Both the position numbers and the translations under genes were made by a program. A stretch of 64,000 nt of DNA from Turnera subulata (lineage: Eukaryota; Streptophyta; Magnoliopsida; Malpighiales; Passifloraceae), in assembly GCA_028386065.3 (NCBI GenBank), contig JAKUCV010001608.1:1-64000 (forward strand), written 5' to 3'. Shown here piece by piece: positions 366-61,284 of the stretch. How positions within the stretch are numbered: position 1 is the stretch's first letter; every line of letters begins with the position of its first letter. The notes below the pieces were generated by a model. That model was not told the DNA's origin and did not search any database. It was given only the letters and a program-made list of their open reading frames with translations.

Positions 366-2141
366 AAATCAATGAGATTTAGGTATCCAAATCTTCTTGA
401 GTCCTTGAGTATTAGGTGCATAGTGATTATGAGCTCCTTCTTGAGCCCAATGCCTATGTCTAGTGAAACAAACAGGAGCAATATGTCCTATTCTATTGCA
501 ATAATGACAAATGACATTTGGGTTATGCATTCTTCTAGGTTGATAGTAGTTACTTTGTTTCCTATACTTATGCACATTACTCACTTTGTTTACCTTAGGT
601 TGTGCCTTAGGTTTCTTTGATTCAACTTTATGTCTTTTAGGTTCATTTGTAAAACCTATTCCATGCCTAGTAGATTGCAAATTACCTAGCATAGAATTCA
701 GATTCTTATGAGGAGTATTAAACTTCTTCAAGGTTGTTTCAAGTTGTTCAACTTGTTTCCTTAAAGGTATGCATGATGAACATTCCTCTACACTCTTCTT
801 TCCTAGCACCTTATTTTCATCCTTTAGCTTCATATTTTCACATGCTAATTTTTCATTTTGTTCTTTTAAGGAGCCACATGAAACACATTCTTTAGGTGTG
901 TCTAGAGTCTTAACTTCTTCCTTAAGATTTTTGTTCTCATTAGACACATTTTCCATATCATTTTCCAACGTTATAACTTGTTTCCTTAAACTCTTATTAA
1001 CTTTGGAAATAGAAATGAATTCACCATAAAGCTTATCAAATGCATTTTGTAGTTCCTCAATTGAGACATTTTCATTTTGAGAAGTGGTACTTACCTCTTC
1101 CGGTTCTTCCCTTGCCATAAGACATAGGTTCGCCGTTTCTTCTTCATCACTATCGGATGATTCGTCACCGGAGTCGCCTCCCTATGATATGTATGCCCTT
1201 TGCTTCTTGTAGGACTTCTTCTCCTTTCCTTCCTTTGCTTTGGGGCATTTGGGCTTGATGTGCCCACTCTCTCCACACCCATAGCATTTGGGTGGTCCGG
1301 ACATCTTTCTCCCTTTCTTTACAAATTCCTTTTTCATGAATTTGTGGAATTTGCGGATGACTAGTCCGAGTTCTTGATCATCATCACTAGAATCCATTTC
1401 AGTGAGTTCTTGTGTCTTGGAGGTAGAAGCTTTGAGAGCTATTGTCTTCTTCTTTGGTTCCTGCATAGAAGGCAAAGAGGGTTTAAGAATGGTAGTTTCA
1501 TAAGTTATAAGAATACCTCTTAGACTATCAATCGTTGTGTTGTTGATGCCGATGTTTTCGTAGATGGCATCCGCCTTTGATCGCCATTCGGGAGTGAGAC
1601 TTCGAAGAACTTTTCTGACCAAGTCCTTGTCGGAGTAAACCTTCTTGAGAGCATGAAGCTCATTTATGATTTTGGAGAAGCGGTCGAACATCTCCTCAAT
1701 TCCTTCATTCTCCTTCATACGAAAGAGTTCGTAATCTGCAGTGAGGGAGTCGATTTTGGCCTCTCGAACTTGATCGGTTCCTTCGTAGGTGACCTCCAGC
1801 TTATCCCACATCTCTTTTGCGGTTGTGCAGCAAGAGACTTTCCGATAATCGTCGGGATTGACTGCACAATAGAGCATGTTGATTGATTTGGCATTGTTTT
1901 CAACCAATACAATGTCTGCAGCGTTGTATTCCTCCTCCGTCTTTGGCACTTCGACTTCACCAACTTTCTTCTTCGGAATTTGCTCTCCAACCTTCATGAT
2001 TCGCCAAAGAGCATAGTTGCTGGATTGGAGGAAAATTCTCATCCTCTCCTTCCAGTAGCTGTAATTTGTGCCATCAAAGTACGGTGGACGGACGGTTGAA
2101 TGTCCTTCGAGAATTCCTGCATGATTACTTGAAGAAGCCAT
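366..2141 (-). pseudogene. copia gag with two CCHC knuckles, one premature stop
   Basis: The capsid polyprotein of copia-1. The first 319 codons (2141-1182) begin MASSSNHAGILEGHST, continue with the copia gag/UBN2-type region (PYFDGTNYSYWKERMRIFL, then TAKEMWDKLEVTYEG) and end with a CCHC knuckle, CYGCGESGHIKPKC. An in-frame TAG at 1182-1184 interrupts it. The same frame then continues with an acidic stretch leading to MAREEPEEVS, a coiled-coil region (heptad-like leucine, lysine and glutamate content, about residues 20-130 of the downstream part) and a second CCHC knuckle, CHYCNRIGHIAPVC, before stopping near 368. Two knuckles separated by a coiled coil fit SIRE-like gag proteins. The two halves are in the same frame, so a single nonsense change explains the break. 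Confidence 0.88.
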
Positions 2142-2180
2142 GGAAGATTTCCTCTCAAACGGTTAAGTCTTCAGAGAGTT

Positions 2181-2194
2181 AGGCTCCGCTACCA
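2181..2194 (-). other. Primer binding site of copia-1
   Basis: The minus strand reads TGGTAGCGGAGCCT two bases inside the LTR. It resembles the initiator-methionine tRNA type site of plant copia elements (TGGTATCAGAGC) with changes. The same TGGTAGCGGAGC form occurs in copia-F and copia-G. Confidence 0.75.
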
Positions 2195-2197
2195 ATT

Positions 2198-3707
2198 GTT
2201 AGGAACAATAGACTTAAGCTAGAGGGGGGGTGAATAGCTTATGACCGAAAATTAAAAACTTTGCAGGAAATGAAGTGCGGAATTGAAAAATAGAAGGACA
2301 CAAGAGATTTTTATACTGGTTCACACACAACTAATTTGTGGCTAATCCAGTCCTTCAAGATACACTTGAAGAGTTCACTATCTACCGTTAAGCTTCCGGG
2401 TGCTTAACAAACCGTTTACAGCCTAGGAATTCTAATCACAAGAATCCTACACACTTGCTTGAAGATACCTCACTTCAAGACTTCTCTCAAGGAAAGAAAA
2501 TCACTCTTCCTATGAGTAGCTACAAGGGAACAAACCTCCCTTTCAGTGTATGAACAACACTATAAAGATTACTCAAACAAAAGCTCTCTCAAGAGTGGGT
2601 ATGAGTTACAATTAAGCACTAATAAGGCAACTCTCAATAATCTCAAGGAATTGGCTCTTAAACTTGAATGATTGTTTTGCAATGAATGATGAATGAATAG
2701 AGAGTTGATTGGTTTTGAAACACAGCTGAAAATGCTCAATATGTAGCTCTGAAAAGTCATGGAGCTGTTTGAAATCCACCCAAAAACAGCCTTGAACAAA
2801 ACATAGTGGGTGCTGAAAAGTTGTCTGCTACAACGGAACAACATCGATGTTTTCACTTTAAACATCGATGTTTTAGCCAGCAATTTTAAATTATTGCACC
2901 AACGGCTAGTAGAACATCGATGTTTGTCTGAGCAACATCGATGTTTTCAGATACAACATCGATGTTCTCAAATACAACATCGATGTTTTTGAGCTTCGCA
3001 AAAATATGATGGAAAAGGGTTATACAAGAATATCGATGTTGGGAAGTCAAACATCGATATTTTATGGCCACTGCCAAAATTCATCTTGAAAGCATTTGTC
3101 ACAACATCGACGTTTTATAGGCCAACATCGATGTTTTCTAGCTTCGGCAAAAGATATATTTCAAAGACAATTTATATGAACATCGATGTTGGATGGTAAA
3201 CATCAATGTTTTGACCAACGGTCACAAGAACATCGATGTTTAGGAAGCCAACATCGATGTTATTTGCCTACTGCCAAATTTTGAAAATCTTTGAAGAAAT
3301 CACAACATCGATGTTTTAATTACAACATCGATGTTTTGGCGCTTCTGCCAAATTTTGAGAAAAGCCTTGAAAACACAGAACATCGATGTTTTTTAGGACA
3401 ACATCGATGTTATTGACTCAAAATACAATTGTATGACTGAAAGCATGCTATGAAATGTATGAGTGAAATTTGTTTTGTTTGAGCCAATGCCTAAAAGAAG
3501 TTGAGTGTTTTACCTTGTACAAATGGGTCCTAACTTCTCTTGCTCTTTTTGCACTTCAACTCTTGATCATATCTTCTCTTGAATTCTTGATCACTTTGGT
3601 TGAGTACTTGTTTGCTTGATTTCCTTTTGCTTCATCTTGGTTATGATCTTGGTTTGTCATTTATCAAAACCTGTAATGAATGAACCATGAAGACATAGGT
3701 TCTAACA
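2198..3707 (-). repeat. 5' LTR of copia-1
   Basis: Read on the minus strand the LTR starts TGTTAGAACC at 3707 and ends GTTCCTAACA at 2198, giving TG...CA ends and short inverted termini. It is about 1510 bp and followed by a PBS after two bases. Its central 570 bp hold the paired ATCGATG palindrome array. The 3' partner lies outside the window. Confidence 0.85.
2840..3411. repeat. Array of paired AACATCGATGTT palindromes in LTR of copia-1
   Basis: Fourteen exact copies of the 12-bp palindrome AACATCGATGTT start at 2840, 2861, 2913, 2934, 2955, 2976, 3124, 3179, 3229, 3250, 3304, 3324, 3379 and 3400. Near copies start at 3029, 3050, 3103 and 3199. Adjacent members of a pair are 20-21 bp apart. 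Pairs recur at 73-76 bp (50 bp once). Intervening DNA often contains CTGCCAAA. Confidence 0.95.
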
Positions 3708-4045
3708 GCATAACCATAGCAAAGGGAGTTTTGCCAGCAATAAAAAAATTAGGCATTAGCTTTTGCAAAATGTTGACAGAGGTCCCTAGTGGTATCAAAT
3801 ATCTAACCAAACTTCAAGAACTGGTGTTGAAAAATCTTGCAAAGGATCTTATTAAGCAAATAGAAGAACCATCCGGTGTGGATCGTCCGAATGTTCAGCA
3901 CATTCAGATCATCACTCACTTTTACCAGACATCATCAGGGTGGTCAAAGAGAAACATTTCCTCATTCATGGGTGCTATTCCTCCAGAAGAAGGCATTCGA
4001 CACAACAGGTTTCCCTCTCATTCCTTGTATTTTCTTTACATTTAA
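3708..4045 (+). pseudogene. C-terminal tail of an RPM1-like NLR resistance gene
   Basis: Immediately right of the copia-1 LTR an open frame reads ITIAKGVLPAIKKLGI, then TEVPSGIKYLTKLQELVL, then VQHIQIITHF. This is the usual end of the leucine-rich repeat domain of plant RPM1-type CC-NB-ARC-LRR proteins, which sense pathogen effectors at the plasma membrane. Only about the last 110 residues are present; the upstream exon is cut by the retrotransposon and lies beyond the left edge if it survives. The stop at 4043-4045 may lie in an intron, because GTTTCC near 4008 could be a splice donor and a short basic reading frame ends near 4155. Orientation matches the NLR at the right end, so the two probably belong to one tandem cluster. 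Confidence 0.82.
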
Positions 4046-4155: not shown

Positions 4156-4990
4156 TGGAGGCAAGCTCGAATGATGAGATAAGTTCCACGCCTTATTGTG
4201 AACTAAAAGAGACTGCCTTGAGTGCTAACAAACTAATTGGATGCAGGAATGACACTTCTCTCTCTCATTGCCGTCCAAATGACTGTTCGCAATTAGCAGA
4301 TGTCATATAGGAATAGGTATGGGCATGCATGTTTTGGAAGATGTGTTGGGTTTGAAGTTGCTTTGTAGTTTCTTTGAGGGTACATGCCTCATTGTGTGTT
4401 TGTCTTGTGCTGGACCAAGATTTGGTACCTATATCGTGTGCTATATTTAAATCATTGATTGCGATGCTTGTGTTTTGGTAATGGGAAATACATAATCAAG
4501 AAAAATACATGAAAAGAGTGCCAAATCAAGTAAACATTGGTGTTTGAAGAAATCCGCCCAGGCAGAGTTGATCCTGTCTACTGAATCGGTTCCATCCTCT
4601 GTCTAAGGTTAGTTACTTTAGAAAATCGAACCAGTCCATAAATGCATAAGAACAAAAGGTCGGGACGTACTAAGGAAGAACAAATTGGCCACTGCGCAAA
4701 AACCTGTTCGATACCCAATGTCCACAGGCCGGTGATGCGCATGCGGCAGCGCTCACAGAGGTTTCGCTGATAGAAGAAATCTAATGTTAGGTGTTGACAA
4801 TTCTTAAAGACAAGGTTTTAGTAATGGACATGTTTTGTGCTCTCCCCTATTATTCTTGCTCTTAAGTGCTTTGACCATTGGTTTCCCAACTCAAATTTCG
4901 GTCCCTTAATTCATACGTGCCAGAACCCTTGGCAAAGCATGCAAGTTCAAGGCAGGAGCTCTAAAGCTGTGCACAAAACTTTGGAAGGGA
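4156..4990. other. Intergenic DNA downstream of the NLR tail
   Basis: No convincing coding sequence on either strand. It probably includes the 3' untranslated region and downstream sequence of the left NLR gene and ends at the LTR of LARD-B. I see no tRNA, no LTR ends and no tandem array here. Confidence 0.5.
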
Positions 4991-5622
4991 TGTAAAAAAT
5001 GGATTTTTTACCGGAGTATGGATGTAAATTTCTCTTGGCATGATTGGGGATTCTTTGGCTTGATCTTGATATTCAGAGGACCTGATCTCTATGCTTGGAG
5101 GGCTTGATCTCTTATGCTTGAAGGGCCTGATCTCTATGGCTGGAGGGCCTGATCTCTATGCCTGGAGGGCCTGCAAGAACAAGAAGAGGACCGGGGGAGT
5201 CCAGGGTTGTGACCCCGGGAGGACCTCCGATGCCTAAGTTAGCAAAGGGAATTTTTCTCTTATTAATTTGAGAGAATATAGAGAGAGAGTTTTGAGAGTG
5301 GAGAATTATATTCTCTAGAGAGAATTTCCTTGTGGAGAGTAGAGTTTTCTCTAGGAGGAATTTGTATGTTGAAACTCTAATCTTGTCCCCCTTTTTATAG
5401 GGATTTTTGGTATTGGAGCATTAACTCCAGTTGTCCCTTTAACTCCATGTAACGCTTATAACGCTTATCATATTTTCCACATGGCTAAATAGCTAGCTGG
5501 ACTGGTCCTAGGCCTTTTGTATTGGATCCGATCCTGGACTCCTATATTGGGCTTAGGCCTGGTCCTGAATTTTGTCTCAATTGGGCCTTTAGGCTTTGAT
5601 TGGATTATTTCACTTCTCATCA
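4991..5622 (-). repeat. 3' LTR of LARD-B
   Basis: On the + strand it starts TGTAAAAAATGGATTTTTTA and ends TCACTTCTCATCA. It is near-identical by eye to 13252-13863, apart from an extra copy of a short GAGGGCCTGATCTCTATG unit around 5100-5170. Confidence 0.92.
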
Positions 5623-6177
5623 CAAGCCCCCAACTCTAAGGGATGTTGTGTAGCAATTTTCCTTAGAGTTTATTACTTCCAATGTGAGCTTTTTTTGTCG
5701 CCTTCAGGTCTTAGCTTGCCTTATTTGGCTAATTCAAACATAAGCTCCAACATATTGATTTTGAGTTGTGAGCTTATTGAATTTTCAACTATAAGCTCAT
5801 TTGTTAGACTAATGTGGTATTGGCTCGAATTTAAAGCCCCCTTGTGTAAGGATCCTCTTGTAAGATAGAGGTGGACTTTTTTAGAGCTCTTGTGGTGTGC
5901 TTTTCAGCTTCTGCATTTTTTGGACCCGAGAGGCCTCTTTTAAATTTGTATAAATCCCCCATTAATTACTTATAATGGGACTTTTTGCTTTGTTATTGTC
6001 TCATAAAGGTCTTCTTTTCTGGACCTGAGATGTGTATCCTTTGGTACCTCTGATATGAGGAGGTCTTTTAAATGAAGGCATCTTCGACATATTGAGGGGA
6101 CCTCTGAAAGTGGGTGCCTCCTTCATGCGCAAAGAGGACCTCAGAATGCGGTACCTTCTTTGTATGTTTCTTGATAT

Positions 6178-6614
6178 GCGACCTTATTTTTTGGACCTAT
6201 TAGCCTTGGTCGTCTTTCTCTCTCTCTTTTCTCTTCTCTGAATATGCGACTTATTCGGGCTAGATATTGCCTTTAGTCATCTTTCATTGAATACGCGGCT
6301 TACTTGGTGTACATGGCCTGTAGTTGTCTTTCATTGAATGCGCGACTTACTTGGGCTATCATGCCTCAGTCGTCTTTCAAGATGCGATCTTTTCTTTAGA
6401 TCGTCTTTTACTATGCGATCTTTTTAGATCGTCTTTTTTCTGTGCGATCTCTTAGATCGTCCTTTTTTTTTTGTGCGATCTCTTAGATCGTCCTTTTTTT
6501 TTTGTGCGATCTCTTAGATCGTCCTTTTTCTGCGACTGAAAGCAGCTGTATGGGCTTTCATCATCTTACTTTGCGACCAACATAGGCTGCATGGCCTGTA
6601 GTTGTCTTTTTTGA
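6178..6614. repeat. Array of TGCGA...TCGTC hairpin units in LARD-B
   Basis: About eleven units begin TGCGA (or TGCGC/ACGCG) and end near TCGTC followed by pyrimidines. In each the inner arms are complementary. Clear units: GCGACC (6178) with GGTCGT (6208); GCGACT (6342) with AGTCGT (6368); GCGATCT with AGATCGT at 6384/6398, 6415/6426, 6444/6454, 6475/6485 and 6506/6516; TGAAAGC (6537) with GCTTTCA (6554). Loop lengths vary from 3 to about 25 nt. Arms differ between units but remain complementary within them. Three of the units are recent tandem copies separated by T-runs. Confidence 0.85.
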
Positions 6615-6794
6615 ATGTGGGATGTTCCTATTAAGTCAACGTCCTTGGTTTGTTACTTTGGACCTTGGGGCCTCTGGTCTATTCAAGGACTTCTATTTAC
6701 AAGATCCTATGGGACCTTTAGGTCTTTAAGGACATTGTTTCATGGGCCTTTTGAGGCTTTTGATTTTCTAAGGCTGTCTGAATGAGACTTTTGT

Positions 6795-7470: not shown

Positions 7471-10400
7471 TGGGTCTCCTTTGGGGACCTTTTCTTGGGA
7501 AGGTCTCCTTCTCCAGGGCTCTTGATGGAGATTCTAAACCGAAGAATAGTTGTGTTTGCTGTTACGCATTGCATAGACAAGCCTGCAACTTTGTAGTGTA
7601 CGTGTTAGGTCGTGTCTTTGTATTGCTCATGTGAGAGTGAGTGCGCGGGTTAGGCCGCGGCTTTGGGAAGTACATGCGAGACTCCAACTTATGAGTGCAT
7701 GGTCTAAGCCTCGATTTTAGATGTCTGACTGGCATTCTTTAGCAGGTTACTATTGCCAGCTCTTATACCTTGGAAAGAGAGCTTTTGATCTTCCATTGAG
7801 GTCTTTCCTTTGCAGGTCCTCTCTCAGAGGCACTTAGTTTGAAGGACCTCAACCTTGTGAGCCTTCTATCATTAGGTTCCTCAAAGAGAAAGTTTGATAA
7901 AAGTTTGACAATAGAGCTATGGAACTCCTTTAGTCAATAGTAACAGTAAAGTTTTGGGAAGTCTTTATTTGTAGGAAGAAATAGCAAGAATCATTTGATG
8001 GAATATAAAAAGAGAACCTGTGTTGGTTTCAACTTTTTTGGGGAGTAGAGACCTTTTAGGTTCTTCTGGCTTCACGCTTGGTGGAGTAACCCTTCAATTC
8101 TTGAATCTTGCTTTCTGCTTCTTCTTCCTTTTGACCATCCCACTTGCTTGCAAAAAAGCATTTACTTTTTGTGGAAAACACCACGTAGACCATCTCTTCC
8201 ATTGCTTTGCCTGCAATGTCATTATATGCCCTCATTGTGGAGGTTCTTCTTTGGAGTGGTCTTCTCTGACTCCTTATGAAATATTGGTCCTAGGATTCCT
8301 TACTTGGGAATTCTCAAGGAATGTCCTCATGGACTCATTATGGAAGCATTGCTTCTGAGGTCTCCTGTTTGGGAAGGTCCCAAAGAACATTCATTTGAGA
8401 TGAGGTATCCCTTATTTGGGAGTTTTCAAGGAAGGTCCTCATTGTAGAGGTTCCTTTTTAGAGAGGCCTCCATGAGACTCATTATGGAAGCATTGCTTCT
8501 GATGTTCCTATTTTACGAAGGTCCCAAGGAACTACCATTTGAGAGGACCATAAGGTTCTTTATTCTAGAGACCTCTAGGATTCTTCTTTTAGAGGTCCTT
8601 AGGGCTCTTTGTTTTAAGAGATCTGCATTTTAGAGATCTTCATGGCTACTCGTAGCTCCTTTTCAAAGCCGTATTGGACTGCCTCGGCTTATTATGGGAA
8701 GAATCTCTTTGATTTGAGAGTAAGCACCTGGATGGTGGATTTTTAAATAAGAACCTTGGTACTTTTTCTCTTCAGCTTGATGTGGTCCTTTCCAACTTTA
8801 GCTCCATTTTGGACTCGTTGCCTCTATCCTAAAAAAGACCAGGTTTTTGGATGGATCGAGGTCCAACTTTTTTATTACAGTACCTCACTATCGCTTATTA
8901 TAGACTTCTATTTTTCCTGAAATACTTTGGATCTCAAGGACTTTTTATAAGGAGGGGGAGCAATGTCCTCTTATAATAAATGGATGCTCGATAATTTTCC
9001 TCATGACCTCTGCCAGTCGTAAATCGGACATCCCCATTTTGGTAAGGGCGGGGCCTTATTTTTGGCTTGATTGCTTGAGGTTACTCATGCCAACTTCATT
9101 GAACATTCAGGCATGTCTCTCCACAGCTTCATGGCTATGATGCTTGTAATCTTATTTGGTATAGGAACCATCCAATTGCAATATCTGTTCATCTTTTTCA
9201 GCTATCTAAGGTAGGCATTCCTTATGTGAGAAAGCCAGCCAGGACCTGCTCTTTAATCATCGTTTTGGACGAGTACTCCTTCTCAAAATAGCACTTAGCT
9301 CTCCTGCTCATCTTGTGAGTCATTCTGTGGCATTTGATTTGCCTTCTTTGTGGAATGGATTTTGTATACCTCTTGGATAGTACAAAGAAGGTCCTCGTTA
9401 TAGGGACCTCTTTGTCTCTACTATGAGGAAGTCCTGACTATTTGCTGCTCAACAGAGGTCCTGCCATCAAGTGGCTTCTGCAGGTCTTACTGCAAAAGGT
9501 CTCCCATCTTTATCTAGCTTCCGTGATGGGAATTCTTTTAAAGAGGACCTTCGTGAATCTCTCAATGAGTAGGCCTTGAGGGTTTTTTTTAGTGAAAACC
9601 TCCCAAAGGTTTGATTCACTCCTACATGCATCCATAATAAGCATTGAGCCAAATTCCGTGCCTTGCAATGCATGTGATGCTTTTCCTTCCCTAGTCATGA
9701 CAGTTATGTTGGGCACCTGTCTTACTGACTGATCGGGAATTTCATGCTTAAGCATTTGATTGCTTGTGGTCATTCTGCATATGTAACTTCTTTGACTGAG
9801 TTACTTTGGGCTCTGCATTACTTGAAGCGAGCTTCTACAGCTTTCGGCCAACCTTCTTTTTTATTACAATGGGAAGTCCTGGTCCTAGCCCCCAAGACTC
9901 TTGAGCAGGGAGTGTTTGGACCTATCCTCAAGAGGGAAGGTTTGAACCTTTCTTCCTTTTCGGCTCCTCCGACATCGTGGACAGGCTAACCCACTTTTTG
10001 AGATGTTTCTTGAGGAGACTCCACTTTTAGAGTGCCTTAAAGAATAGTCATTACGATGACATTGTAGTACCCAACTCCAACTCCTTATGTTGCACAATAG
10101 GCTCTACCTTTTGTTTCTTAGTGCTGTTGGGATCTTGGAGCCTCCAATTGGTACTTCATAATTTATGGCTCATGTGGCCATTATTGCATTCCTCATGGAT
10201 ATGAGTATCTCCACAGCTTGTTTGGCACTAGATGCTTCTTAACTTCCAAATACCATGCTTGATAGTTCCTAACTCTCGAACATTTTGTTCTTTACTAGGA
10301 GCTTTTCCAATTTAGGTGCCTTAGACCTTCATTAGTGGACTTGGAAGTCTGTGGCTCTTTGCTTGGTACCTTATTGAATTAAGTACCTCTCTCAGGTGCT

Positions 10401-13231: not shown

Positions 13232-13251
13232 TTCCCCACAGACGGCGCCAA
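13232..13251 (-). other. Primer binding site of LARD-B
   Basis: Minus strand TTGGCGCCGTCTGTGGGGAA directly abuts the LTR. TGGCGCCGT... sites are typical of Tat-group gypsy elements and their LARDs. Confidence 0.8.
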
Positions 13252-13863
13252 TGTAAAAAATGGATTTTTTACCGGGGTATGGATGTAAATTTCTCTTGGC
13301 ATGATTGGGGATTCTTTGGCTTGATCTTGATATTCAGAGGACCTGATCTCTATGCTTGGAGGGCTTGATCTCTTATGCCTGGAGGGCCTGATCTCTATGC
13401 TTGGAGGGCCTACAAGAACAAGAAGAAGGACCCGGGGGAGTCCAGGGTTGTGACCCCGGGAGGACCTCCGATGACTAAGTTAGCAAAGGGAATTTTTCTC
13501 TTATTAATTTGAGAGAATATAGAGAGAGAGTTTTGAGAGTGGAGAATTATATTCTCTAGAGAGAATTTCCTTGTGGAGAGTAGTGTTTTCTCCAGGAGGA
13601 ATTTGTGTGTTGAAACTCTAATCTTGTCCCCCTTTTTATAGGGATTTTTGGTAGTGGAGCATTAACTCCAGTTGTCCCTTCAACTCCATGTAACGCTTAT
13701 AACGCTTATCATATTTTCCACATGGCTAAATAGCTAGCTGGACTGGTCCTAGGCCTTTTATATTGGATCCGGTCCTGGACTCCTATATTGGGCTTAGGCC
13801 TGGTCCTGAATTTTGTCTCAATTGGGCCTTTAGGCTTTGATTGGATTATTTCACTCCTCATCA
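13252..13863 (-). repeat. 5' LTR of LARD-B
   Basis: Matches 4991-5622 almost base for base over its length and has the same TG...CA ends. The PBS adjoins it on the left, which makes this the 5' LTR of a minus-strand element. Confidence 0.92.
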
Positions 13864-13993: not shown

Positions 13994-14733
13994 TGTTGGT
14001 TTTGTTTCTGAAAAACTGAAATTTCAAACTAATTGGCAGAACTTCAAGAATATCGATGTTTACTTTAGAACATCGATGTTTTGCTGAGTCTGGAATTCAA
14101 ATTAATTGGCAGAACTCTTAGGACATCGAAGTTTAATCTTAGAACATCGGTGTTTGTGAGTCTGGAACTTCAAACTATTTGGCAGAACTCTTAGAACATC
14201 GATGTTTGACTTAGAATATCGATGTTTTGAGAGTCTGGAACCTGAATCAATTTGGCAGAACTCTTAGAACATCGATGTTTTAACTTGGAACATCGATGTT
14301 TGCTGGAAAAATTCCAGAACTCACAAAGTTGGTTTTTTTTGTTACTGTTTTATTGGTTTTCTCTCTAAACTCTCAATCTCTTGTCTTGAACACTTAGTAA
14401 ACAAGGTAGAGGATACACAATGAAGTGAAAAACACACGTTTTCCCTTGATTGATTTTCAGAATACAACATTCAAATTTATAGGCCATGTTGCATGCAGCT
14501 TGCTGCAGCAACTTGCAGCACCATACTCCTAGCCCATACAACAAGTGCAGCATGGAGACCCATAATCCACTAAGCTGATCTTCTTGGTTTGCTGAACATG
14601 AGACCTCCTAAGAATGATCAGATAACAAAGAAACATTTCAATAACAAAAAGACACACACAACTTGCACACTTGTAATTATTCTGGAAATAAGCTAAAACC
14701 AAACTCAGCAACAGCTTGATCACACTACTGACA
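13994..14733 (-). repeat. 3' LTR of copia-F (740 bp)
   Basis: Starts TGTTGGTTTTG and ends CACTACTGACA on the + strand. It contains four palindrome pairs, with first members at 14049, 14122, 14194 and 14268, a 72-74 bp period. Confidence 0.93.
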
Positions 14734-18784: not shown

Positions 18785-18798
18785 CTGCTCCGCTACCA
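18785..18798 (-). other. Primer binding site of copia-F
   Basis: Minus strand TGGTAGCGGAGCAG, two bases inside the 5' LTR. Confidence 0.8.
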
Positions 18799-18800
18799 AT

Positions 18801-19445
18801 TGTTGGTTTTGTTTCTGAAAAACTGAAATTTCAAAGTAGTTGGCAGAACTTCAAGAACATCGATGTTTACTTTAGAACATCGATGTTTTGATGAGTCTGG
18901 AATTCAAACTAGTTGGCAGAACTCTTAGAACATCGATGTTTAATCTTAGAACATCGATGTTTGAGAGTCTGGAACTTGAATCAATTTGGCAGAACTCTTA
19001 GAACATCGATGTTTGCTGGAAAAATTCCAGAACTCACAAAGTTGGTTTTTTTGGTTACTGTTTTATTGGTTTTCTCTATAAACTCTCAATCTCTTGTCTT
19101 GAACACTTAGTGAACAAGGTAGAGGACACACAATGAAGTGAAAAACACATGTTTTCCCTTGATTGAATTCAGATTACAACATTCAAATATATAGGCCATG
19201 TTGCATGCAGCTTGCTGCAGCAACTTGCAGCACCATACCCCTAGCCCATACAGCAAGTGCAGCATGGAGACCCATAATTCACTAAGTTGATCTTCTTGGT
19301 TTGCTGAACAAGAGGCCTCCCAAGAATGATCAGATAACAAAGAAACATTTTAATAACAAAAAAATACACACAACTTGCACACTTGTAATTATTCTGGAAA
19401 TAAGCTAAAACCAAACTGAGCAGCAGCTTGATCACACTATTGACA
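18801..19445 (-). repeat. 5' LTR of copia-F (645 bp)
   Basis: Starts TGTTGGTTTTG and ends CTATTGACA on the + strand. It contains two full palindrome pairs (18856/18876 and 18929/18950) and one single copy at 19002, again on a 73-bp period. Confidence 0.93.
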
Positions 19446-19450
19446 TTTAC

Positions 19451-22149: not shown

Positions 22150-22162
22150 TGGTATCGGAGTC
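22150..22162 (+). other. Primer binding site of copia-A
   Basis: TGGTATCGGAGTC, one base after the 5' LTR; a variant of the initiator-methionine tRNA site. Confidence 0.82.
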
Positions 22163-23523: not shown

Positions 23524-25850
23524 ATGGCACAAAACACAAGTACACTATCACTGCGATCTGTCCTTGTGAAGGAAAAAATTAATGGGAATAACTTCCTTAA
23601 GTGGCATCGCAATTTGAGGATAGTCCTCAAACAAGAAAAGAAATTGTATGTGTTAGTGTAATATGCCCAAAAGCCAATCATGGATGATTACTTGTAGTCA
23701 TGTATACGCATTAAGGTTATTCCAATAAGTATCGTTTATAAGATAAACTCTTGCACATACTTATAACCCTAGAATATTTCATATTCTTAAATTGTCCCTA
23801 GTCGATCATTATTATGGATGGGTTGTAATAATAAATTAAGACTAGCGTATGTTGAGAATTGCATATGTGATATGAATTCTACATACGGGTACAAGTTAGA
23901 GAACTTGTGGACTCGACCGACCCACATAAGAACGCTACATGGAACGTTATATGTTTTGTCGATAGCGGTTCTTATAATGTATTGTCCTTTGACCTGTGAT
24001 CATCAAGGTTCCCAACATGTAAGTCATATGCTTTGATATTATTCCTGGTCATCCGCAACTGGATAGACGTAAGGGTAATCATTGGGTGTATGATGAGTGT
24101 GTAGTGGGTTTTGTATGATCCAGAGGGGATTCGTCCAACCCATATAACGGGTATATTATCGGAGTGTTTCTTGATAGAGTTGAACCGTAAATGCATGGCC
24201 ATGCTCGGATAATGATATATGATATCATTGGTATTCGTTTTACCGGTTAACTCGAGGATCAAGAAACCAGGATTAAACATATGCAAGATTGACATATTCC
24301 GTGTCTCGTGTTTAATCTTGATAATGGGACGAAGGGACGATGACATGTTCCGAGGCACGTGGAATTAGTATTGATCTTGTCGTTCGGGTGGCAATGAAGT
24401 GTTGCTAGACGCCGCTCTTTGCTTATAATGCTAAAATGAGATTTTACGATTATTGTCGAACGTACAAGTGCCTACAGGGTCACACACATACAGCCGCTGA
24501 TTCGAGCAGGTGGTTGAACCGTGGTTGGACCATGGTTGAACCAAGGTGTGGTTGTACCGCGATTGGACTATGGTTGGACCGTGGTTGGACCAGGGTCGTT
24601 TTGGTACAATAATGATCTGAATTATTGACCAGAGTTAGTGGTATGGTGGTGTGTTATCTGATTATGCATTAGTGGAGACAAGATAATGAGGGTCATTGTC
24701 TTTGGGGCCTAGTGTTGGCCATTAGTCTTATCACTTATGTATTATGGAAAAGAGAGAGGTAGAGTACCTTTGTGATCAAATCACTCTCTTGCTCTTCTCT
24801 TGCTTGTTTTGAGTTTTTCAGAGCAAAAAGACATACACACTAGCCTCTTCTTCTTTGTGAAAGAAGAAAAACACCTAAAACACAACTCCCGAAAATCTGT
24901 TGCTAGCACACCAGTTCGGGAGAGCTCGGGTTGAAGTCGTGAGACGTTCTTCAGCCGGTTACAACGGTTCGTGTGGAAACCGTAGAGGGGCGAGGCTTAC
25001 GTCTGGCTCTTGCTGATTCGGTTCTACAGTTGGGTGAAAGACCTCACAGTTACAGGTATGAAAAATTGTTATTCGGTTTAGCTCCCTTCACATGGATCCT
25101 CCATGTGTATCCGGTATTTCCGCTGCGCATACATGTTGTATTTTTTGCTTTTGATTGTCAATTGCATGAACCGAATACTCACAGTATGTCCTCGAAGGGC
25201 CTGTTCCTAATGAACCGGCACCTAATGCTCCTACGGCGGAAAGAGATGCTTACAAGAAACATGTCGATGAGGCATTGGATGTCGCTTGCCTTATGCTTGT
25301 CAACATGGACTCTGAGCTTCAGAAGCAACATGAGAACTTGGGTGCATTCGATATGATCGAACACCTGAAAATGCTCTTTGAAGAGCAAGCAAGGCATGAG
25401 AGGTATGAGACCTCTAAGGCATTATTCCAATGCAAGATGGCTGAGTCATCACCAGTCAGGCCTCATGTGCTCAAGATGATTGGATACATTGAGAGCCTTG
25501 AGGGTCTGGGTTTTCCTTTGTAGAAGGAGTTGGCTATTGATCTAGTCCTGCAATCGTTGCCGGATAGTTACAGCCATTTTGTCATGAATTTTAATATGAA
25601 TCATCTTGAAAAATCCTTGTCTGAGTTGCTTAACATGTTAGGAACAGTTGAGCAACAGATGAAGACAAATAAATCCAACAACATATTGATGGTTGGAAAT
25701 AGCAAAGGAAAGGGAAAAAGCAAGAAGAAGAAATCTGCCAAAAAGTTTGGTTCATCTTCTTCACAAGTGCTGAAAACCAAAGGTGGTGTTCCAAAGGAAG
25801 GACAATGTTTCTAATGCAAGAAACCTGGCCATTGGAAGCATAACTACCCT
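23524..25850 (+). pseudogene. copia-A gag, interrupted by a solo LTR
   Basis: Begins MAQNTSTLSLRSVLVKEK and NNFLKWHRNLRIVLKQEK, a copia-type gag N-terminus. It is cut at 23650 by a solo LTR and resumes at 25184 in the YVLEGPVPNEPAPN region, followed by EEQARHERYETSKALFQCK. It has stop codons at about 25523 and inside the knuckle (CF-stop-CKKPGHWKHNY), where the last cysteine of the CCHC is also changed to tyrosine. The copy in copia-C keeps CFHCKKPGH but carries other stops. Confidence 0.88.
23651..25183 (+). mobile_element. Solo LTR inserted in copia-A gag
   Basis: TGTTAGTGTAATATGCCC at 23651 to ACTCACA at 25183, flanked by GTATG (23646-23650 and 25184-25188). It is 1533 bp and clearly related to the copia-A/C LTRs but diverged in several blocks. 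No internal region is present, so it records an insertion followed by LTR-LTR recombination. Confidence 0.93.
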
Positions 25851-36220: not shown

Positions 36221-37795
36221 TGTGAATACCCGACCCAAAATCAATTGGGCCTATTCACCTATTTCCTTACACCTTCGTCTTCGGGTCAATCCCATGTCAA
36301 TGGAGTCGCCACCCAATTTTTATTAAGGGGAAAATTTGGGAAAAACCTTCATGTGACTCCTTTAGGCTACATGGTCATGGCGAACCAAAGTCATAGGATC
36401 GGGGGTTCGTCATGGATGGGAAGGTGTTAGGCACCCATCCGTGCTGGGTCAAGACTATGTGCAATTGCAAAATGCGAGTATGCCTTATGCAGGTGTGCAA
36501 GTGTGGAAAATAAAAGAATGGGGGAGAAGAAGAATATTTGGCTTGCATCCCATTGTAAAACCGAGACTACCTACGTACCCAAGTGACCGGGGTCAAAGCC
36601 ACGTAGTTCTAAACATGGCACTAATCGGCCACTTACATCATCAAAAGCATCAGCATATAATCAGCAAAGAATCAATCAAAAGAGTTTAGTGTTACCTCTT
36701 GTAGCCCTTCTCTAGCTCCTTGCAATGGGTTGTGTTCTCCACCCACCTTCTTACCACTCATTAGCTCTATGGTTGATCCTCTTCTTGACTCTCCCTTGCT
36801 GGACTACTGCTGACACTCCCCACGAAATTTCTCCAGAGTTTCTGCCTAGATATATTTCTAAGCTTGGAGAGATAGAGTTTCTCCAAGCAACAAGAGCTTA
36901 TGGGTGTGTATGTAAAAAAAATTATGTGTCCTCTGAAATGTGTGTGATGGGTCCTATTTATAGAGTTCTAGGAAGCCTAGAGGTGTGGACCTGCTTATTG
37001 GTTCAGATTATGCCCGAAAATCTGGTCCAAAACCACGTAGGATCAAATTAGAAACAAAATCGGAGGAAATCGGGGGTTCTGGGCACCCATGACCGCCGCT
37101 GTCGATGGTCATGTGGGGATGTCCGCCAACACCTGGCGGTCGTCGCGCGATGACCACCGGTCACCCCGCGTGTCACCCGTTCTTTCCTTTTTCGACCCCC
37201 AATCCCCCTAATTCAGCTCTGATTTGATCTTACCGCGTAATCAAACCCCCAATCAACCCCAAATCACACAATTACTTGATTAACACTCCCCTAAATCATT
37301 CCGTAATAGATTAATTACACATTAACACCCATTTTATACTAAATCATAGCAAAAACAACATTCCTACATAAATGAAGATTTAGCTCTGATTTTCCACGAA
37401 AATCAGAGCTAAAATTAGCCTGCAAGAAATGTGTTAATGAGCTGGATAAACTCTGGAGAATTCATTAATTTGGGCCTTTAAACCCATCCTCAACCCAAAG
37501 ACAAATCTTCTCATTAAAATTAGATTAAAGATAGATAAAAGGCCCAAGTAATGAAATAAACACATTTCAGTGTAAATAAACCTTATTATATATTTTACTC
37601 TAAGATTAAATCATCTCATTAATCTTAGCATACCAATATACAAAGGCTTAAATTACCAAAATGTATTATTTCCACTAGAATAGATTCTTGACATGCCTTA
37701 TTCCTAGGATCAAATCATCTCATCAACCCTAAGTTCAAACATATTTAAAATCTATTTTTTGTGGCAAATTCGTAGGTCAAATTTAGGTGTTCACA
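36221..37795 (-). repeat. 3' LTR of LARD-E
   Basis: 1575 bp, matching 53439-55009 over its length with scattered differences. It ends AGGTGTTCACA, followed by GATGCCCCTCG (complement of the purine tract). Confidence 0.93.
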
Positions 37796-37916
37796 GATGC
37801 CCCTCGTTGATGAATCCTTAGAGACTAAGGACGAAACAATATAAGAAAGGAATAACCAAATTTGAATGATAGATGTGTGTGGTGTGTGCCAAGGGTTGGA
37901 GCATCCCATGCTCCCT

Positions 37917-50338: not shown

Positions 50339-50645
50339 TTGGTATCATAGACCATTCAATCAACCTTGTCAAACTCATTCGACTTCCTATCGAAAACACA
50401 CTTTGATTGATATCATATACCAATCAAGAACTTGCTGTCAAACACCTATGACGGATCCGACTTCAACATATCACATATATGAGAATCATAATGATCTAGT
50501 TTAAACATACTATCAACATAAGCATAATAAACTATGATCAAGTTATGTTGCTTATACAATCATGATCAAGCCACATCATCTATAGCATATCATACATATA
50601 AACAACTAATTCGGTTTAGTATTTCACAAGAGGTTTTGCTACCAC

Positions 50646-53438: not shown

Positions 53439-55009
53439 TGTGAATACCCGACCCAAAATCACTTGGGCTTATTCACCTATTTCCTTACACCTTCTTCTTC
53501 GAGTCAAACCCATGTCAATGGAGTCGTCATCCAAATTTTATTAAGGACGAAATTTGGGAAAAACCTTCAAGTGACACCTTTAGGCTACATGGTCATAGCG
53601 AACCAAGTCATGGGATCGGGGGTTCGTCACGGATGGGAAGGTGTTAGGCACCCATCCGTGTTGGTTCGAGACTGTGTGCAATTGAAAAATAAGAGTGTGC
53701 CTTGTGCAAGTGTGGAAAATAAAAGAATGGGGGAGAAGAAAAGGATTTGGCTTGCATCCCGTTGTAAAACTGAGACTACCTACGTACCCGAGTGACCAGG
53801 GTCAAAGCCATGTAGTACTAAACATGGCACTAATTGGCCACTTACATCATCAAAAGCATCAACATATAATCAGCAAAGAATCAATCAAAAGAGTTTAGTG
53901 TTACCTCTTATAGCCCTCCTCTAGCTCCTTGCAATGGGTTGTATTCTCCACCCCCTTCTAGCCACTTCTTAGCTCTATGGTTGATCCCCTTCTTGATTCT
54001 CCCTTGCTGGACTACAGCTGACACTCTCCACGAAATTTCTCCAGAGTTTCTGTCTAGATATATTTCTAAGCTTGGAGAGATAGAGTTTCTCCAAGCAACA
54101 AGAGCTTATGGGTGTGTATGTGAGAAAAATTGTGTGTCCTCTGAAATGTGTATGAGGGGTCCTATTTATAGAGTTCTGGGAAGCCTAGGGGCCTGGACCT
54201 GCTTAATGGTGAAGATTATGCCCAAAAATCTGGTCTAAAACCACGTAGGATCAAATTAGAAACAAAATCGGAGGAAATCGGGGGTTCTCGGCACCCATGA
54301 CTGCCGCTGCCGGCGGTCATCCGCTGGATGACCCCCAGTGCTGGCGGTCATGTGGGGATGTCCGCTAGCACATGGCGGTCGTCGCGAGAGGACTGCCGAT
54401 CACTCCGCGTGTCACCGGTTCTTTCCTTTTTCGACCCCCATTCCCCCTAATTCAGCTCTGATTTGATCCTACCGCGTAAACAAACCCCCAATTAATCCCG
54501 AATCACTCTATTACTTGATCAACACTCCTCTAAATCATTCCATAATAGATTAATTACACATCAACACCCATTTCATACTAAATCATACCAAAAACAACAT
54601 TCCTACAGAAATGATGATTTAGCTCTGATTTTTGTTGCAAGAAATGTGTTAATGGGCTGGATAAACTCTGGAGAATTCATTAATTTGGCCGTTAAACCCA
54701 TCCTCAACCCAAAAATAAATCATCTCATTAAAATTGGATTAAAGATAGATAAAATGCCCAAGTAATGAAATAAACACATTTCAGTGTAAATAAACCTTAT
54801 TATAGATTTTACTCTATGATTAAATCATCTCATTAATCCTAGCATACCAATATACAGCGGCTCAAATTACCAAAATGTATTATTTCCACTAGAATAGATT
54901 CTTGACATGCCTTAGTACTAGGATCAAATCATCTCATCAACCCTAAGTTCAAACATATTTAAAATCTAATTATTGTGGAAAATTCGTGGGTCAAATTTGG
55001 GTGTTCACA
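53439..55009 (-). repeat. 5' LTR of LARD-E
   Basis: 1571 bp, same ends as the left copy. The PBS lies two bases to the left. Confidence 0.93.
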
Positions 55010-55569
55010 GTAGGGGAGCATCTCTTGGGGTCCGGGGCGGATCCGTCTCCATTCTGTCCGAATCTTGGCGGGTTCGTATCGAGTCTTTCGACCTTCCTTT
55101 GTTCCACCTATCTTCGGCGAGGCTTGGCGGTGACGGCAGCTTTCCTCCAGTGATGGCGCGTTCCTGTTTGTTCTGGTGCGGGTTTTAATAGATCCAGATG
55201 GATCTATCTTGGTCCTAACCAGATCCGGGGTAGACCGGCTCTTCCCTTCACGCAATCTACCGGCTATGTATATATTATGATTATGTATATTATTATTATT
55301 TTTAAATGAATCTGTACGCCTTGAATTATCCCAATCTGTTCGTCTTGGTTGCGTGCATGAATTCCTTTCCTTGTTGAATTTGTTGCTTGATTTCCTGGAT
55401 CCGTTGTTTCTGCACATAAATCTGTTCGTTTTTGGATCGTTGCTCTTCGCACGACTTGGTTCCATTTTTTTTAATGTGCAGAACGTTGGATTTTCTTCAT
55501 TATTTGTTGTTTTTGTTTTTTGAAAGGGGATGGACGGATTGGACAGTGTTAAACCGTGAATCGATCGTC
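55010..55569 (-). other. 5' internal region of LARD-D
   Basis: Continuation of LARD-D between the LARD-E insertion and the PBS. A basic, asparagine-rich frame is open on the minus strand over about 55465-54959, but it runs into the LARD-E LTR and shows no known domain. Probably untranslated leader. Confidence 0.45.
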
Positions 55570-56494: not shown

Positions 56495-57060
56495 TGTTAG
56501 ATTATGTGATCAAGCTGCACTAAGAGTGATTAAGCTATTAGTTGAGTTAGTGGAGAATAATCAAGTTGTGTGGTTGGTCCCATCAACTTAAGTGTGTTAG
56601 GTAAAGTGTGCTTTTGTTTATTGTAATCCAAGTGTGTGTGAGTGTTTGATTATTGTAATTGTAGTGTGTTTATCTTGAGTTGTAAGTGGACTAGCTTTAA
56701 ATGATGTGCTATTATGAGCATATTAGGAAAAGCAAACCCACTAATTAAAGTGATAGGGTCAGCTGAGTGGAGTGGTTGGGTGATAGGTTGATTTTCTGCC
56801 TATATATTGAGTCTTGTAATCTGAATTCAACAAGTGAAATATGTGTGAATTGAGTGTTTTTCACTTCATTAAGTGTTTCTTGACTTGATCATTAAGTGTT
56901 CAAGCCAAAAGATTGAGTGAATTGAGAGAAAACCAATAGAACAGTAACCAAGAAAGTCAACATCTCGGTTCTGCAGATTTCTGGAAATTTTCCAGAATTT
57001 GGTGCAATTTAAGTTACATCTTCAACAAAACATCGATGTTTGTTTGAGAAAAAGCCAACA
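56495..57060 (+). repeat. 5' LTR of copia-G (566 bp)
   Basis: TGTTAGATTATGTGATCAAG to AGAAAAAGCCAACA. It contains one palindrome copy at 57029-57040. Confidence 0.93.
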
Positions 57061-57062
57061 AT

Positions 57063-57077
57063 TGGTAGCGGAGCAGG
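57063..57077 (+). other. Primer binding site of copia-G
   Basis: TGGTAGCGGAGCAGG, two bases after the 5' LTR, as in copia-F. Confidence 0.82.
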
Positions 57078-57157
57078 TTCCTTTTTTTAGGCCTGTTCTA
57101 ATTCATTGAAACCACATCAAATTAGTCTCAAACACCTTCCAAACACCAAACTTCAAA

Positions 57158-58147
57158 ATGAATACACAGCCCGCAAATAGAATCACCTCATCCTTACCCC
57201 TACCACCCATTTTTTATGGAGAGAACTACAACTATTGGGCTATAAGGATGAAATCCTTCCTTATAGCTAATGGTTTGTGGTTTTTAGTTGAAGAAGGTTT
57301 TAATGAAAAAGAAGACATTGAAGAAATGTCTGTAAATCAATTGAGAACATATAATGAACGATTGCAGAAACATAATACTGCAATTTCATTTATGTTCTCT
57401 TTGGTTTCAGAGGAGATTTTTCCTTTGATTGTTGGGCTACAACAGTCAAAGAAGCATGGAAGATCCTTGAGAAGCAGTTCAGAGGGTCTAAAGAAACAAG
57501 ACAAATCAGAATGCAATCCTTGAGGAGAGATTTTGAGATGCTGAAGAAGTCAAAAACAGAAACAATAAGGAAGTATGCCTCAAAAGCTCAAAACATTGTC
57601 AACAAAATCAGGCTATATGGAGAAGTGATCCCTGAGGTCAGAGTAGTTAAAAATTCTCAACACAGTTGTAGTTAAATTTGAAGCAAAAGTTGCAGCTATT
57701 GAAGAACCAAGAGACATCACTGAGATGTCAGTTCCTGAACTCATTGGCAAATTAGAAGCTCCTGAGCAGAGGCATGTGAGAAGAGTTGAACCTGGGATTG
57801 AAAAGGCTTTCCAAACTAAGCAGAAAAATGTCAACAACAAATTTAAAGCTAAACAAAAACCGGAGAAAAGCACATACAAGCACCAGAAGGAGGCCTTAAG
57901 CTCACAAATAGTGTTTTCACCTTGCAAATTCGGTGGAAAGACAAACTATTTGGAGCAGAGGTGCAGGAGAAACAAGAAGTGCAATTTTTGTCACAAAATT
58001 GGGCACATTGAACGTTTTTGCAGAGCAAAAAAAAAATGGAGAAAATCAAGTCCAACAACAAGTGCAACAACAACAACAAACTTAGACTCAACATCAAGCT
58101 CAGCTAGCCGAAGAAAATCAAGAGGAGTTCATGTTCATGGCAAGTGA
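57158..58147 (+). pseudogene. copia-G gag
   Basis: Starts MNTQPANRITSSLPLPPIF, GENYNYWAIRMKSFL. A frameshift near 57430 (after SFMFSLVSEEIF) and another near 57650 break it. The downstream part (57725-58147) has the CCHC knuckle CNFCHKIGHIERFC followed by a basic and serine/threonine-rich tail. More than 70% of residues look shared with the copia-F gag by eye. Confidence 0.88.
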
Positions 58148-61100
58148 AAGTTCAGAAAAATAAGAAAATGGTGTTTTGTACATTGACAGTGGCTGTACCA
58201 GTCACATGACTAGAAATTCAAAATAGTTCTTAGACTTGGACAAGTCAATCTGTGTGGAAGTCAAAACTGTTGATGGTGCCATTCTCAAATCCAAAGGAAA
58301 AGGTACGGTTTCTATGAACTACAATGGAGTTAGTAGGCTCATTAAAGATGTCTTCCTAGTTCCTGGATTGAAGCACAATCTTTTGAATGTGTCACAGATG
58401 GTTAAAAATGGATATTCTATGAGCTTTGAAGATGATTGTTGTATGATTGCTATGAAAGGAAAATTAGTCAGCAAAATTAAAATGAAGAACAATTCATTTC
58501 CATTGAACTTGAACATGCATTATGAGATGGTGAACACAAGTGAAGTTGATGAAAGTAGCTTATGGAATAGAAGATATGGCCATGCTAGCTTACATTCTTT
58601 GAAACTTGCTGCACAAAAGGAGTATGTCAGGGATCTGCCACCAATACAAGTTCTTGGAGAAATTTGTGAGTCATGCCAATTGGGAAAGATGCATAGAGAA
58701 TCATTTCCGGTTGCAGCAGAAGGAAGAGCCCTAGAGAAGCTGGAGCTGGTGCACACCGACCTTTGTGGCCCAATGCACACACCCTACTTGAGTGGTAATA
58801 TTTATTTCATGCTATTCATTGATGATCTAACACTAATGACATGGATTTACTTCTTGAAGAATAAGTTGGCAACTCTGGAAGTATTCAAGAAATTTAAAGG
58901 CATGGCAGAAACACAAAGCAATTGTAGTTTGAAAAAGCTGAGATCAGATAGAATGGGAGAGTTCATATCAAAGATGTTTGAAGATTTCAGCAACTCAAAT
59001 GGTATTCTTCACCAATTGACAGTACCATATTCTCCTCAGCAAAATGGAGTGGTGGTAAGAAAGAACAGAACCGTGATGGAGATGGCAAGAAGTATGCTAG
59101 CAGAAAAGAAACATCCTCAAAGTTTTTGGGCAGAAGCTACCTACACTGTAGTGTATCTCATCAATAGGTTTCCAACAAAATCAGTTGAAGGAAAGACTCC
59201 CATTGAAGCTTGGACTGGTAAGAAACCAACTGTGAAGCATTTGAAAGTATTTGGTTCTCTTTGCTATGTCCATGTTCCAGAAGAAAAGAGAAAGAAGCTG
59301 GATTTCAAAGCTGAAAGAGGCATTTTGTTGGGATATAGTAGTCAATCCAAAGGCTACAGGGTGTTCATGATTGACAATGAGAAGGTGGTGAGAACAAGAG
59401 ATGTCAAAGTGGATGAGGAAGCTTATTGGGAATTGAAAGAAAAGAAGGTAATAAAGAACAGTCCTAGTGATGCAGCTGAAGTGCAAGAAGATCATCCTCC
59501 AAATGAAGAGGATTATGATTCAGATACACCTCCAATGAAGGTTAGATCACTTGGTGATGTATGTGAGAGGTGTAATTTTGTAAAAACAGAGCCACACTGT
59601 TATGAAGAAGCAGAAAAGCAGGAACATTGGAAAAGAGCCATGGAGGAAGAAATTGGCATGATCAACAAGAATGAAACTTGGGAATTGGTTCCAAGGCCTG
59701 GAAATCAGAAGATAATTAGAGTCAAATGGGTGTTTCGCACTAAAATGAATGCTGATGGCACCATTTCCAAGTTCAAAGCAAGACTTGTGGTCAAGGGCTA
59801 TGCACAACAATATGGCCTAGACTACCTTGAAACTTTTGCCCCAGTAGCTCGCCTTGACATAATCAGATTGCTCTTGGCTATTTCAGCTCAAAACAAATGG
59901 AAGGTATTCCACTTAGATGCGAAATCTGCATTTCTAAATGGAATTCTAGAAGAAGAAGTCTACATTGAGCAACCTAAAGGTTTCATTGTGGAAGGAAAGG
60001 AAGACTATGTTTACAGGTTGAAGAAAGCTCTCTATGGACTAAAACAGGCTGCAACAGCTTGGTATAGTTGCATGGATAGTCACTTGGTTCATCATGGATT
60101 TAAAAGAAGTGAAAGTAAAGCAACCTTGTATGTGAAAGGCAGCTCTTGTGATGATTTGATCATAGTTTCCCTCTATATTGATGACATGCTGATTACCAGA
60201 GCAAATCACAGCAAAATTTCAGTTTTCAAAACTGAAATGATGAAAGAGTTTGAAATGTCTGATTTGGGATTGATGCACTACTTCCTTGGAATGGAGGTGA
60301 TGCAATGTGATGAAGGAATTATGATCTCTCAGAAAAGATATGCAGAATCCATCTTGGAAAAATTCAAAATGGACTCTTGCAAACTAGTGGCAACCCCATT
60401 GGTCCAAAACACCAAGTTTGCAAAGAATGAAGATGAAGAAGATGCTGAAATTGGGGTGTTTAGGAGCTGTGTAGGGAGCTTGCTGTAACTTACAGCAACT
60501 CGACTTGATATACTATTTACAACAAATTTACTATCAAGATTTCTCAATGCCCCCAAGAAGAGTCTTGCTATCGTAATGAAGAGAGTGCTAAGGTATGTCA
60601 AAGGCACTACTGATCTTGGTCTACATTATAGCTCATCCAAAGATGCAAAATTGAAGGCATATAGTGACAGTGATTGGGCTAGAAGTGTAGATGACATGAA
60701 GAGCACAACTGGTTATGTTTTCTTGTTTGGTTCAAATGCATTTTCGTGGTGTTCCAGGAAACAAACTGTTGTTGCTGAATCCACAGCTGAAGCAGAGTAC
60801 CTTGCTGCTGCTTCAATTGTAAATGGTTTTTGGTACAGTTGGTACCCAACTTTCTTACGTTGGGTCAATCATGTACCTACAACTTTTCTCGAGACAATCA
60901 TATACCTGGAGTTTTTACAGGCAGGTCAATCATGGGTCTCGGGCTAGGTATGTGCTGACGTGGATGCTGCCCAAAATTGGGTTGCTGCCCGTTGCTCAAA
61001 ACGACGTCGTATTACCGCAATACGACGTCGTTTCACGTCCACGTGTCGAACATAAGACCCACTCAATCCCCAACGTTTTTCCGCCTTGGCTCTCTCCCGG

Positions 61101-61167
61101 TTTAAAAGGTTCAACCTTACCCAAACATTACCATTTCCACTTTAAAACCCAAATTTTTTGTTTCTTT

Positions 61168-61252
61168 NNNNNNNNNNNNNNNNNNNNNNNNNNNNNNNNN
61201 NNNNNNNNNNNNNNNNNNNNNNNNNNNNNNNNNNNNNNNNNNNNNNNNNNNN
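61168..61252. other. Assembly gap (85 N)
   Basis: A run of N interrupts the interior of the Mutator-like element just before the tandem units, which may be why assembly failed here. Frames reading through it are meaningless. Confidence 1.
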
Positions 61253-61284
61253 CTACTGCTGCGATGTGGTGATACTGTGATACA

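Follow-up and report, generated by a model that had tools for sequence, protein, structure and literature searches.

The window analyzed here, a stretch of 64,000 nucleotides of Turnera subulata DNA (C1456:1–64000 in the genome assembly G000, which comprises 518,689,335 bp in 7125 contigs), carries several retrotransposons in which a 12-bp palindrome, AACATCGATGTT, is repeated in arrays. The palindrome occurs 42 times in exact form, whereas 100 dinucleotide shuffles of the window gave a mean and a largest count of 0, and 62 times when up to two mismatches are allowed (3.3 expected), which bears out the figure of more than 50 exact or near copies given in the initial annotation. As described there, the sites are concentrated in five arrays (58 of the 62) with one isolated copy at 57029; to these we add three scattered two-mismatch sites (4533, 31196, and 41662) and a correction, the start quoted as 14194 being in fact 14195.

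Array A (2840–3411, minus strand; 18 palindromes with at most two mismatches) lies in the U3 region of a Sirevirus-type copia LTR. The single 5′ LTR of this family A element (∼2199–3709, minus strand) has TGTTAG…CCTAACA ends and an adjoining PBS (2183–2194, minus strand; CA/ATTGGTAGCGGAGC junction), the other LTR being outside the window, and its gag is found as two stop-free frames (369–2162, minus strand), of which 1182–2162 has PF14223; the nearest match to this gag, at 72–74%, is from Cuscuta campestris. The arrays at 14049–14300 (8 palindromes) and 18856–19013 (5 palindromes), both on the minus strand, turn out to be in the 3′ LTR (∼13994–14733) and the 5′ LTR (∼18802–19447) of one and the same element, B1. 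In the 5′ LTR, which has a TATA near 19190 and a PBS at 18787–18798 (minus strand), the array is near the LTR 3′ end (R/U5), ∼150–300 bp past the presumed start. B2 (56495–62887) is a relative of B without an array and with the one site at 57029–57040 (plus strand), in an LTR at 56495–∼57058 that is followed by a PBS at 57063–57074. In family C, array C1 (22451–22955, plus strand; 15 palindromes, with a CTGCCAA-like word present in both orientations) occupies the leader between the PBS (22150–22161) and gag (∼23526), and array C2 (50004–50338, minus strand; 12 palindromes) is likewise in the leader of a C element with its PBS at 50633–50644. Thus, of the several copia hosts proposed in the initial annotation, three array-bearing families stand, with two of the arrays belonging to a single element, and the array is indeed in the LTR in some families (A and B) and in the leader in another (C). 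The pol proteins of A-group elements in L011 and L015 are 36–37% identical to B pol over ∼790 aa, and a C-like region in L020 is ∼31% identical to B pol over 496 aa but 42% over 156 aa elsewhere.

Other repeated sequences are found around these elements. A C-type LTR-like stretch (23644–25131), ∼84% identical to the C LTR over its first 1 kb, begins right after the C1 gag start, where the gag frame stops; a ∼1.6-kb repeat (36221–37796 and 53439–55010) is 89% identical between its copies; and a 94% direct repeat (4990–5622 and 13251–13863; 8.26 kb apart) may be the LTR pair of a further element that is nested next to A and B. The PBS word TGGTAGCGGAGC is common to copia families A and B and to the L019 family described below (positions 2183, 18787, and 57063 in the window and ∼4489 in L019).

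Across the 519-Mb genome, a count of the kind called for in the initial annotation, here with the reversed word as control, gave 76,101 exact copies of AACATCGATGTT as opposed to 63. At a start-to-start distance of 21 bp (i.e., with a 9-base spacer), 20,153 exact pairs were counted versus 11 in the control, such that the original observation is confirmed and is larger than first noted. In a scanned collection of viral contigs there was one palindrome pair, in one contig (L001), and a query with B pol found no relative among these contigs.

Within the arrays of the window, neighboring palindromes are 19–21, 30–32, 43–44, or 52–55 bp apart, and in loci fetched from the genome the distances cluster at 20–21, 30–32, 42–44, and 52–55 bp. 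The recurrence at 73–75 bp reported previously holds as the distance from pair start to pair start, the single intervals being the shorter ones just given. The accompanying proposal that all copies face one side of the helix fits arrays A, B, and C2 tightly (R = 0.89–0.98 at 10.4–10.56 bp) and C1 more loosely (R = 0.63). When intervals from 24 bp to 110 bp are considered (i.e., with the longer inter-array gaps excluded), 7 of 256 distances deviate from a multiple of 10.5 bp by over a quarter of a turn (0/24 in the window, 4/116 in 17 loci, and 3/116 in 24 L019-family pieces), whereas about half would be expected off phase if there were no phasing. It should be noted that an exact 21-bp pair was the criterion for choosing 17 of the 20 fetched loci (13 contigs), which are therefore ascertained, that the three loci picked blind (L024–L026) have no palindrome site, and that the phase statistics are inflated because the copies share descent; on distinct distance values only, the phase signal is weak (naive p = 0.006, 0.01, and 0.19). 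The initial annotation had named a lack of spacing peaks and confinement to one family as outcomes that would speak against it; in the fetched loci the peaks are present, and several families carry the array.

Among 351 sites, each position of the palindrome keeps its base in 92%–99% of cases, a range that is biased by the choice of sites with at most two mismatches. The short spacers are nearly free (106 of 117 are distinct at 9 nt and 36 of 42 at 8 nt), and 93 of the 96 long spacers are distinct. A second word, CTGCCAAA, is nevertheless found with at most one mismatch in 37 of these 96 long spacers (∼2.3 in shuffled sequence), and in 33 of the 37 it occupies a slot 8–9 bases past the palindrome, in either orientation. 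In the L019 family, 24 of the 114 long spacers have this word as well (1.7 when shuffled), 23 times at offset 9. The flanks are dyad-symmetric per site, with T rare at position −1 and A rare at +1, so that each site has the appearance of a dyad reaching a little beyond the 12 bp. Within the L019 family, divergence is only slightly lower in palindromes (0.064) than in spacers (0.089), so that the comparison does not demonstrate selection in that family. When the array was translated, 10 word-sharing protein candidates were obtained, none of them at E ≤ 1.

Judged by three sequence marks, family A is Sirevirus-like. In both the window element and the related L017, the LTR ends in CA/ATTGG and is followed by the Met-tRNA PBS TAGCGGAGC, which differs at 2 bases from the published TATCAGAGC. 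A C-rich integrase signal is found near the LTR 3′ end (CACCCCCCCTCTAG in L017 and ctagagggggggtgaa on the plus strand of the window). The third mark, PPT octamers before the 3′ LTR, was seen in one relative of A (L017/L018), the 3′ end of A itself being outside the window: AGGGGGAA is present three times at ∼1790–1900 of L018, the last copy with AT/TG. In Sireviruses the last octamer is 10 bp from the 3′ LTR, and an A-ending octamer variant has been reported for Tnd-1 and ToRTL1. Family B shares the ATTGG junction and has no C-rich signal near its LTR 3′ end. With regard to the Sirevirus RM array, defined by at least eight palindromes in U3 upstream of the TATA, the window A element has 18; their core is ATCGAT and not the CGG-CCG that is typical of the RM.

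The position of the array relative to the TATA suggests a regulatory role of the kind proposed in the initial annotation, as far as it can be read from anatomy alone: in five LTRs of family A the array is followed by a TATA at 96–97 bp. The window copy of family A has a decayed one ∼93 bp beyond the array, near 2745; an earlier candidate near 2311 was dropped. Taking all 32 arrays, 9 have a TATA 60–140 bp away (7 of the 15 in group A), with 13% expected at random. L017/L018 have a second, internal array with a TATA 83 bp past it, ahead of a PF20167 ORF, an arrangement comparable to that of the published Sirevirus motifs, which precede the env-like gene. The bound host factor that the initial annotation offered as one reason for the persistence of the module is at present a candidate reader.

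Four loci (L012, L017, L018, and L021) contain Sirevirus-like elements with extra ORFs, some of them antisense, and in L012 and L017/L018 an array is found between divergent frames, the PF20167 ORF being in L018. An antisense frame in L012 is weakly similar to Exo_endo_phos, below the cutoff. Over 110 aa, the PF20167-like ORF of L012 (2184–2528) shares 95% identity with the TE-derived N terminus of P0122, a predicted Turnera subulata protein in which this N terminus is joined to an amino acid transporter domain; the corresponding ORF of L018 is 60% identical to another Turnera subulata protein. Two relatives of the PF20167 ORF were found in all, one of them a fusion.

Grouping by flank similarity assigns the 32 arrays to A (15), B (10), C (5), and two singles. 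One of the singles, L019, is composed of an LTR, a PBS, an array-bearing leader, and then a gag frame with PF03732 (E = 1.4e-6). A further copy, L053, has an 869-aa frame with PF03732 (E = 9e-8) after the leader, and as LTR-like sequence follows this gag ORF, the L019 family looks non-autonomous; its ORFs, when run against Pfam, gave no pol domain. We take PF03732 to be a Ty3/gypsy-type gag and PF14223 a copia gag, and we read the L019 family as non-autonomous and of Ty3/gypsy type, the superfamily being assigned from the gag domain alone. A match to PF19259 (Ty3_capsid) in L052 was dropped as support for Ty3, since it sits in an insert within that copy. The sharing among families thus reaches further than the initial annotation had it, past the three copia families to one with a Ty3/gypsy-type gag. 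A search for additional L019-family members gave 596 candidates, of which 40 were scored; of the 39 besides L019, 24 were fetched, and 21 of these have 6–16 sites in the leader, the other three (L043, L044, and L046) having none. Like the C arrays, the arrays of the L019 family sit further downstream of the presumed start than the B array. In L043 and L044 the replacement leader segment holds repeated TACTGTTCA-like words, which are perhaps another regulatory module. Downstream of the L019-family copy in L053, a frame at 6152–6691 is weakly similar to a plant mobile domain (PF10536, below the cutoff).

That the module has moved between elements, as was initially suspected, is shown by cross-family module identity and by a leader swap. 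One piece of the L017 array (9879–9954) is 88%–90% identical over 71–76 bp to several L019-family leaders, including a 28-base spacer identical to that of L032 and L033; elsewhere the identity between L017 and these leaders is lower (82%–87%), and the module alignment scores 56 against a shuffled maximum of 24. The B and C arrays, which have the same orientation relative to transcription, are 72%–83% identical over ∼120–280 bp in the main alignments and 68%–70% in a few others, and their spacers match even with the palindromes masked. The A and B spacers have little in common beyond the fixed word CTGCCAAA. Within the L019 family, the array-less copies are 88%–94% identical to L019 and L027 over ∼450–490 bp of the LTR/PBS part and 93%–96% identical to L019 over 62–100 bp of the downstream flank, and the leader in between is unrelated. 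In sequence terms, the array-less and array-bearing copies therefore differ by a cassette swap, which may have gone in either direction.

Palindrome arrays as such are known from Sireviruses, and it is to these that the present arrays have to be compared. To our knowledge, no protein has been shown to bind the Sirevirus palindromes. As described by Bousios et al. (2010; PMC2829016), the Sirevirus RM is a palindrome repeated many times in U3, close upstream of the TATA region, and again ahead of a gene in the linker; it was called Sirevirus-specific and missing from classic copia, and both the reader of the palindrome and its role were left open. The closest likeness is to tobacco Tnd-1, which has eight copies of ACAATCGATTGT with the same ATCGAT core as the array here and is the one exception to the CGG-CCG core given in that paper. 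Unlike the RM as presented there, the array is also found in family B, in which the C-rich mark is missing, in family C, and in the L019 family with its Ty3/gypsy-type gag; its sites are also in R/U5 or the leader, are laid out in whole turns, and are accompanied by a second fixed word. Maize Sireviruses have clusters of the palindrome CACCGGACNNNGTCCGGTG in copia LTRs, and this palindrome is also present in Helitrons, but the account in PMC10760457 concerns RNA structure and small RNAs, as opposed to the helical layout and leader swap seen here. The open-licence papers that match ACATCGATGT or the 12-mer look unrelated, judged from their titles; only the Sirevirus work was close, and no report of sharing between copia and gypsy-type elements was found. 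As far as these searches of open-licence literature go, the wider sharing and the phased layout are new.

In our reading, which we consider somewhat better than an even bet, the array is a portable element bound by a dimeric protein, acting at promoters and exchanged between families as a cassette. Each AACATCGATGTT would by itself form a complete dyad, recognized by a sequence-specific DNA-binding protein in dimeric form, with sites two turns apart or, across CTGCCAAA, four to five turns apart, and with CTGCCAAA itself placed about two turns after the palindrome start. The whole-turn layout would put the bound dimers on one face of the helix, where they could act together (i.e., by phased, cooperative binding), and the array would serve retrotransposon promoters in an activating or architectural capacity, from just upstream of the TATA in LTRs of the Sirevirus type and from a place past the start (R/U5 or leader) in the others. 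Template switching or gene conversion would be the probable route by which the cassette passed from one family to another. Counting against this reading, there are copies without an array (L043, L044, and L046, and B2 with its one site), so that some lineages do without it.

Should the array instead work as RNA, neighboring palindromes would form 12-bp hairpins with a role in packaging, in dimerization, or as a template for small RNAs, as has been proposed for the maize Sirevirus palindromes (PMC10760457). The predicted folds are strong (z = −5.9 and −8.8), as is however expected of any palindrome array. In favor of pairing, complementary partner changes occur in 6 of 167 pairs (12 of 106 counted changes against a null of 3.4, P = 0.002), and one of 12 flank positions (−5) is nominally more complementary (P = 0.04), but immediately next to the palindromes complementarity falls short of expectation (32 versus 43.8 and 33 versus 44.1). 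The location in the leader or R/U5 of B, C, and the L019 family would suit an RNA element, while the family A array is upstream of the TATA, and we know of no reason at the RNA level for steps of whole turns. We favor action at the DNA level and regard an RNA role as unlikely. Su(Hw) and the Drosophila gypsy element point to another possibility, an insulator or architectural array without direct activation: the gypsy 5′ untranslated region has 12 copies of a 12-bp Su(Hw) site (PMC2374998), comparable to the roughly one dozen leader sites in C and in the L019 family, and the protein is known. The Su(Hw) consensus is non-palindromic with short, variable spacers according to the same source, unlike the dyad and whole-turn grid shared here by several families, and an array next to the TATA, as in family A, suits a promoter element better; we give an insulator little credence. 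Similarly improbable, in our estimate, is that the arrays are functionless and came about by tandem duplication of a spreading repeat, with phase and motif kept by common descent alone. The arrays are indeed tandem repeats, with the B and C array DNA 72%–83% identical in the main alignments, the phase tests on distinct values are weak, and palindromes and spacers diverge similarly within the L019 family. Nevertheless, while nearly every spacer is different, the palindrome persists between families that are mostly ∼31%–37% identical in pol, and intervals of 31, 43, and 52 bp all hold phase.

A binding protein, if there is one, could also be encoded by a retrotransposon, for instance by the linker ORF of a Sirevirus, with the arrays of other families exploiting it in the manner of VANC, the anti-silencing proteins of Arabidopsis VANDAL elements. 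VANDAL elements are DNA transposons. In that case, a known TE-encoded protein binds a short motif that is amplified in non-coding parts of the element by tandem repeat formation (PMC5735166), and here the internal array of L017/L018 precedes a PF20167 ORF that has its own TATA. However, the VANDAL motifs have one orientation, the word “palindrome” being absent from the main text of that paper, and the PF20167 ORF is only a putative binder. A host factor is likelier, since several families use the site, and we rate a retrotransposon-encoded reader as slightly less probable than an RNA role, though ahead of the insulator and of functionless repeats.

Beyond the promoter-bound, cassette-exchanged array that we prefer, one can envisage, as a more speculative and rather doubtful extension, that a single code (the phased grid together with the second word) circulates as a cassette among unrelated retrotransposons, Ty1/copia as well as Ty3/gypsy-type, and has one protein as its reader, possibly from the Sirevirus linker, which would place tens of thousands of sites on one switch. 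With a 12-bp site in 76,000 copies that obeys a spacing rule, and with array-bearing and array-less natural variants side by side in one family, both the reader protein and its effect are open to direct tests. If the idea is correct, retrotransposon families share control elements across lineages, and the activity of the whole mobile complement of the genome may depend on one factor.
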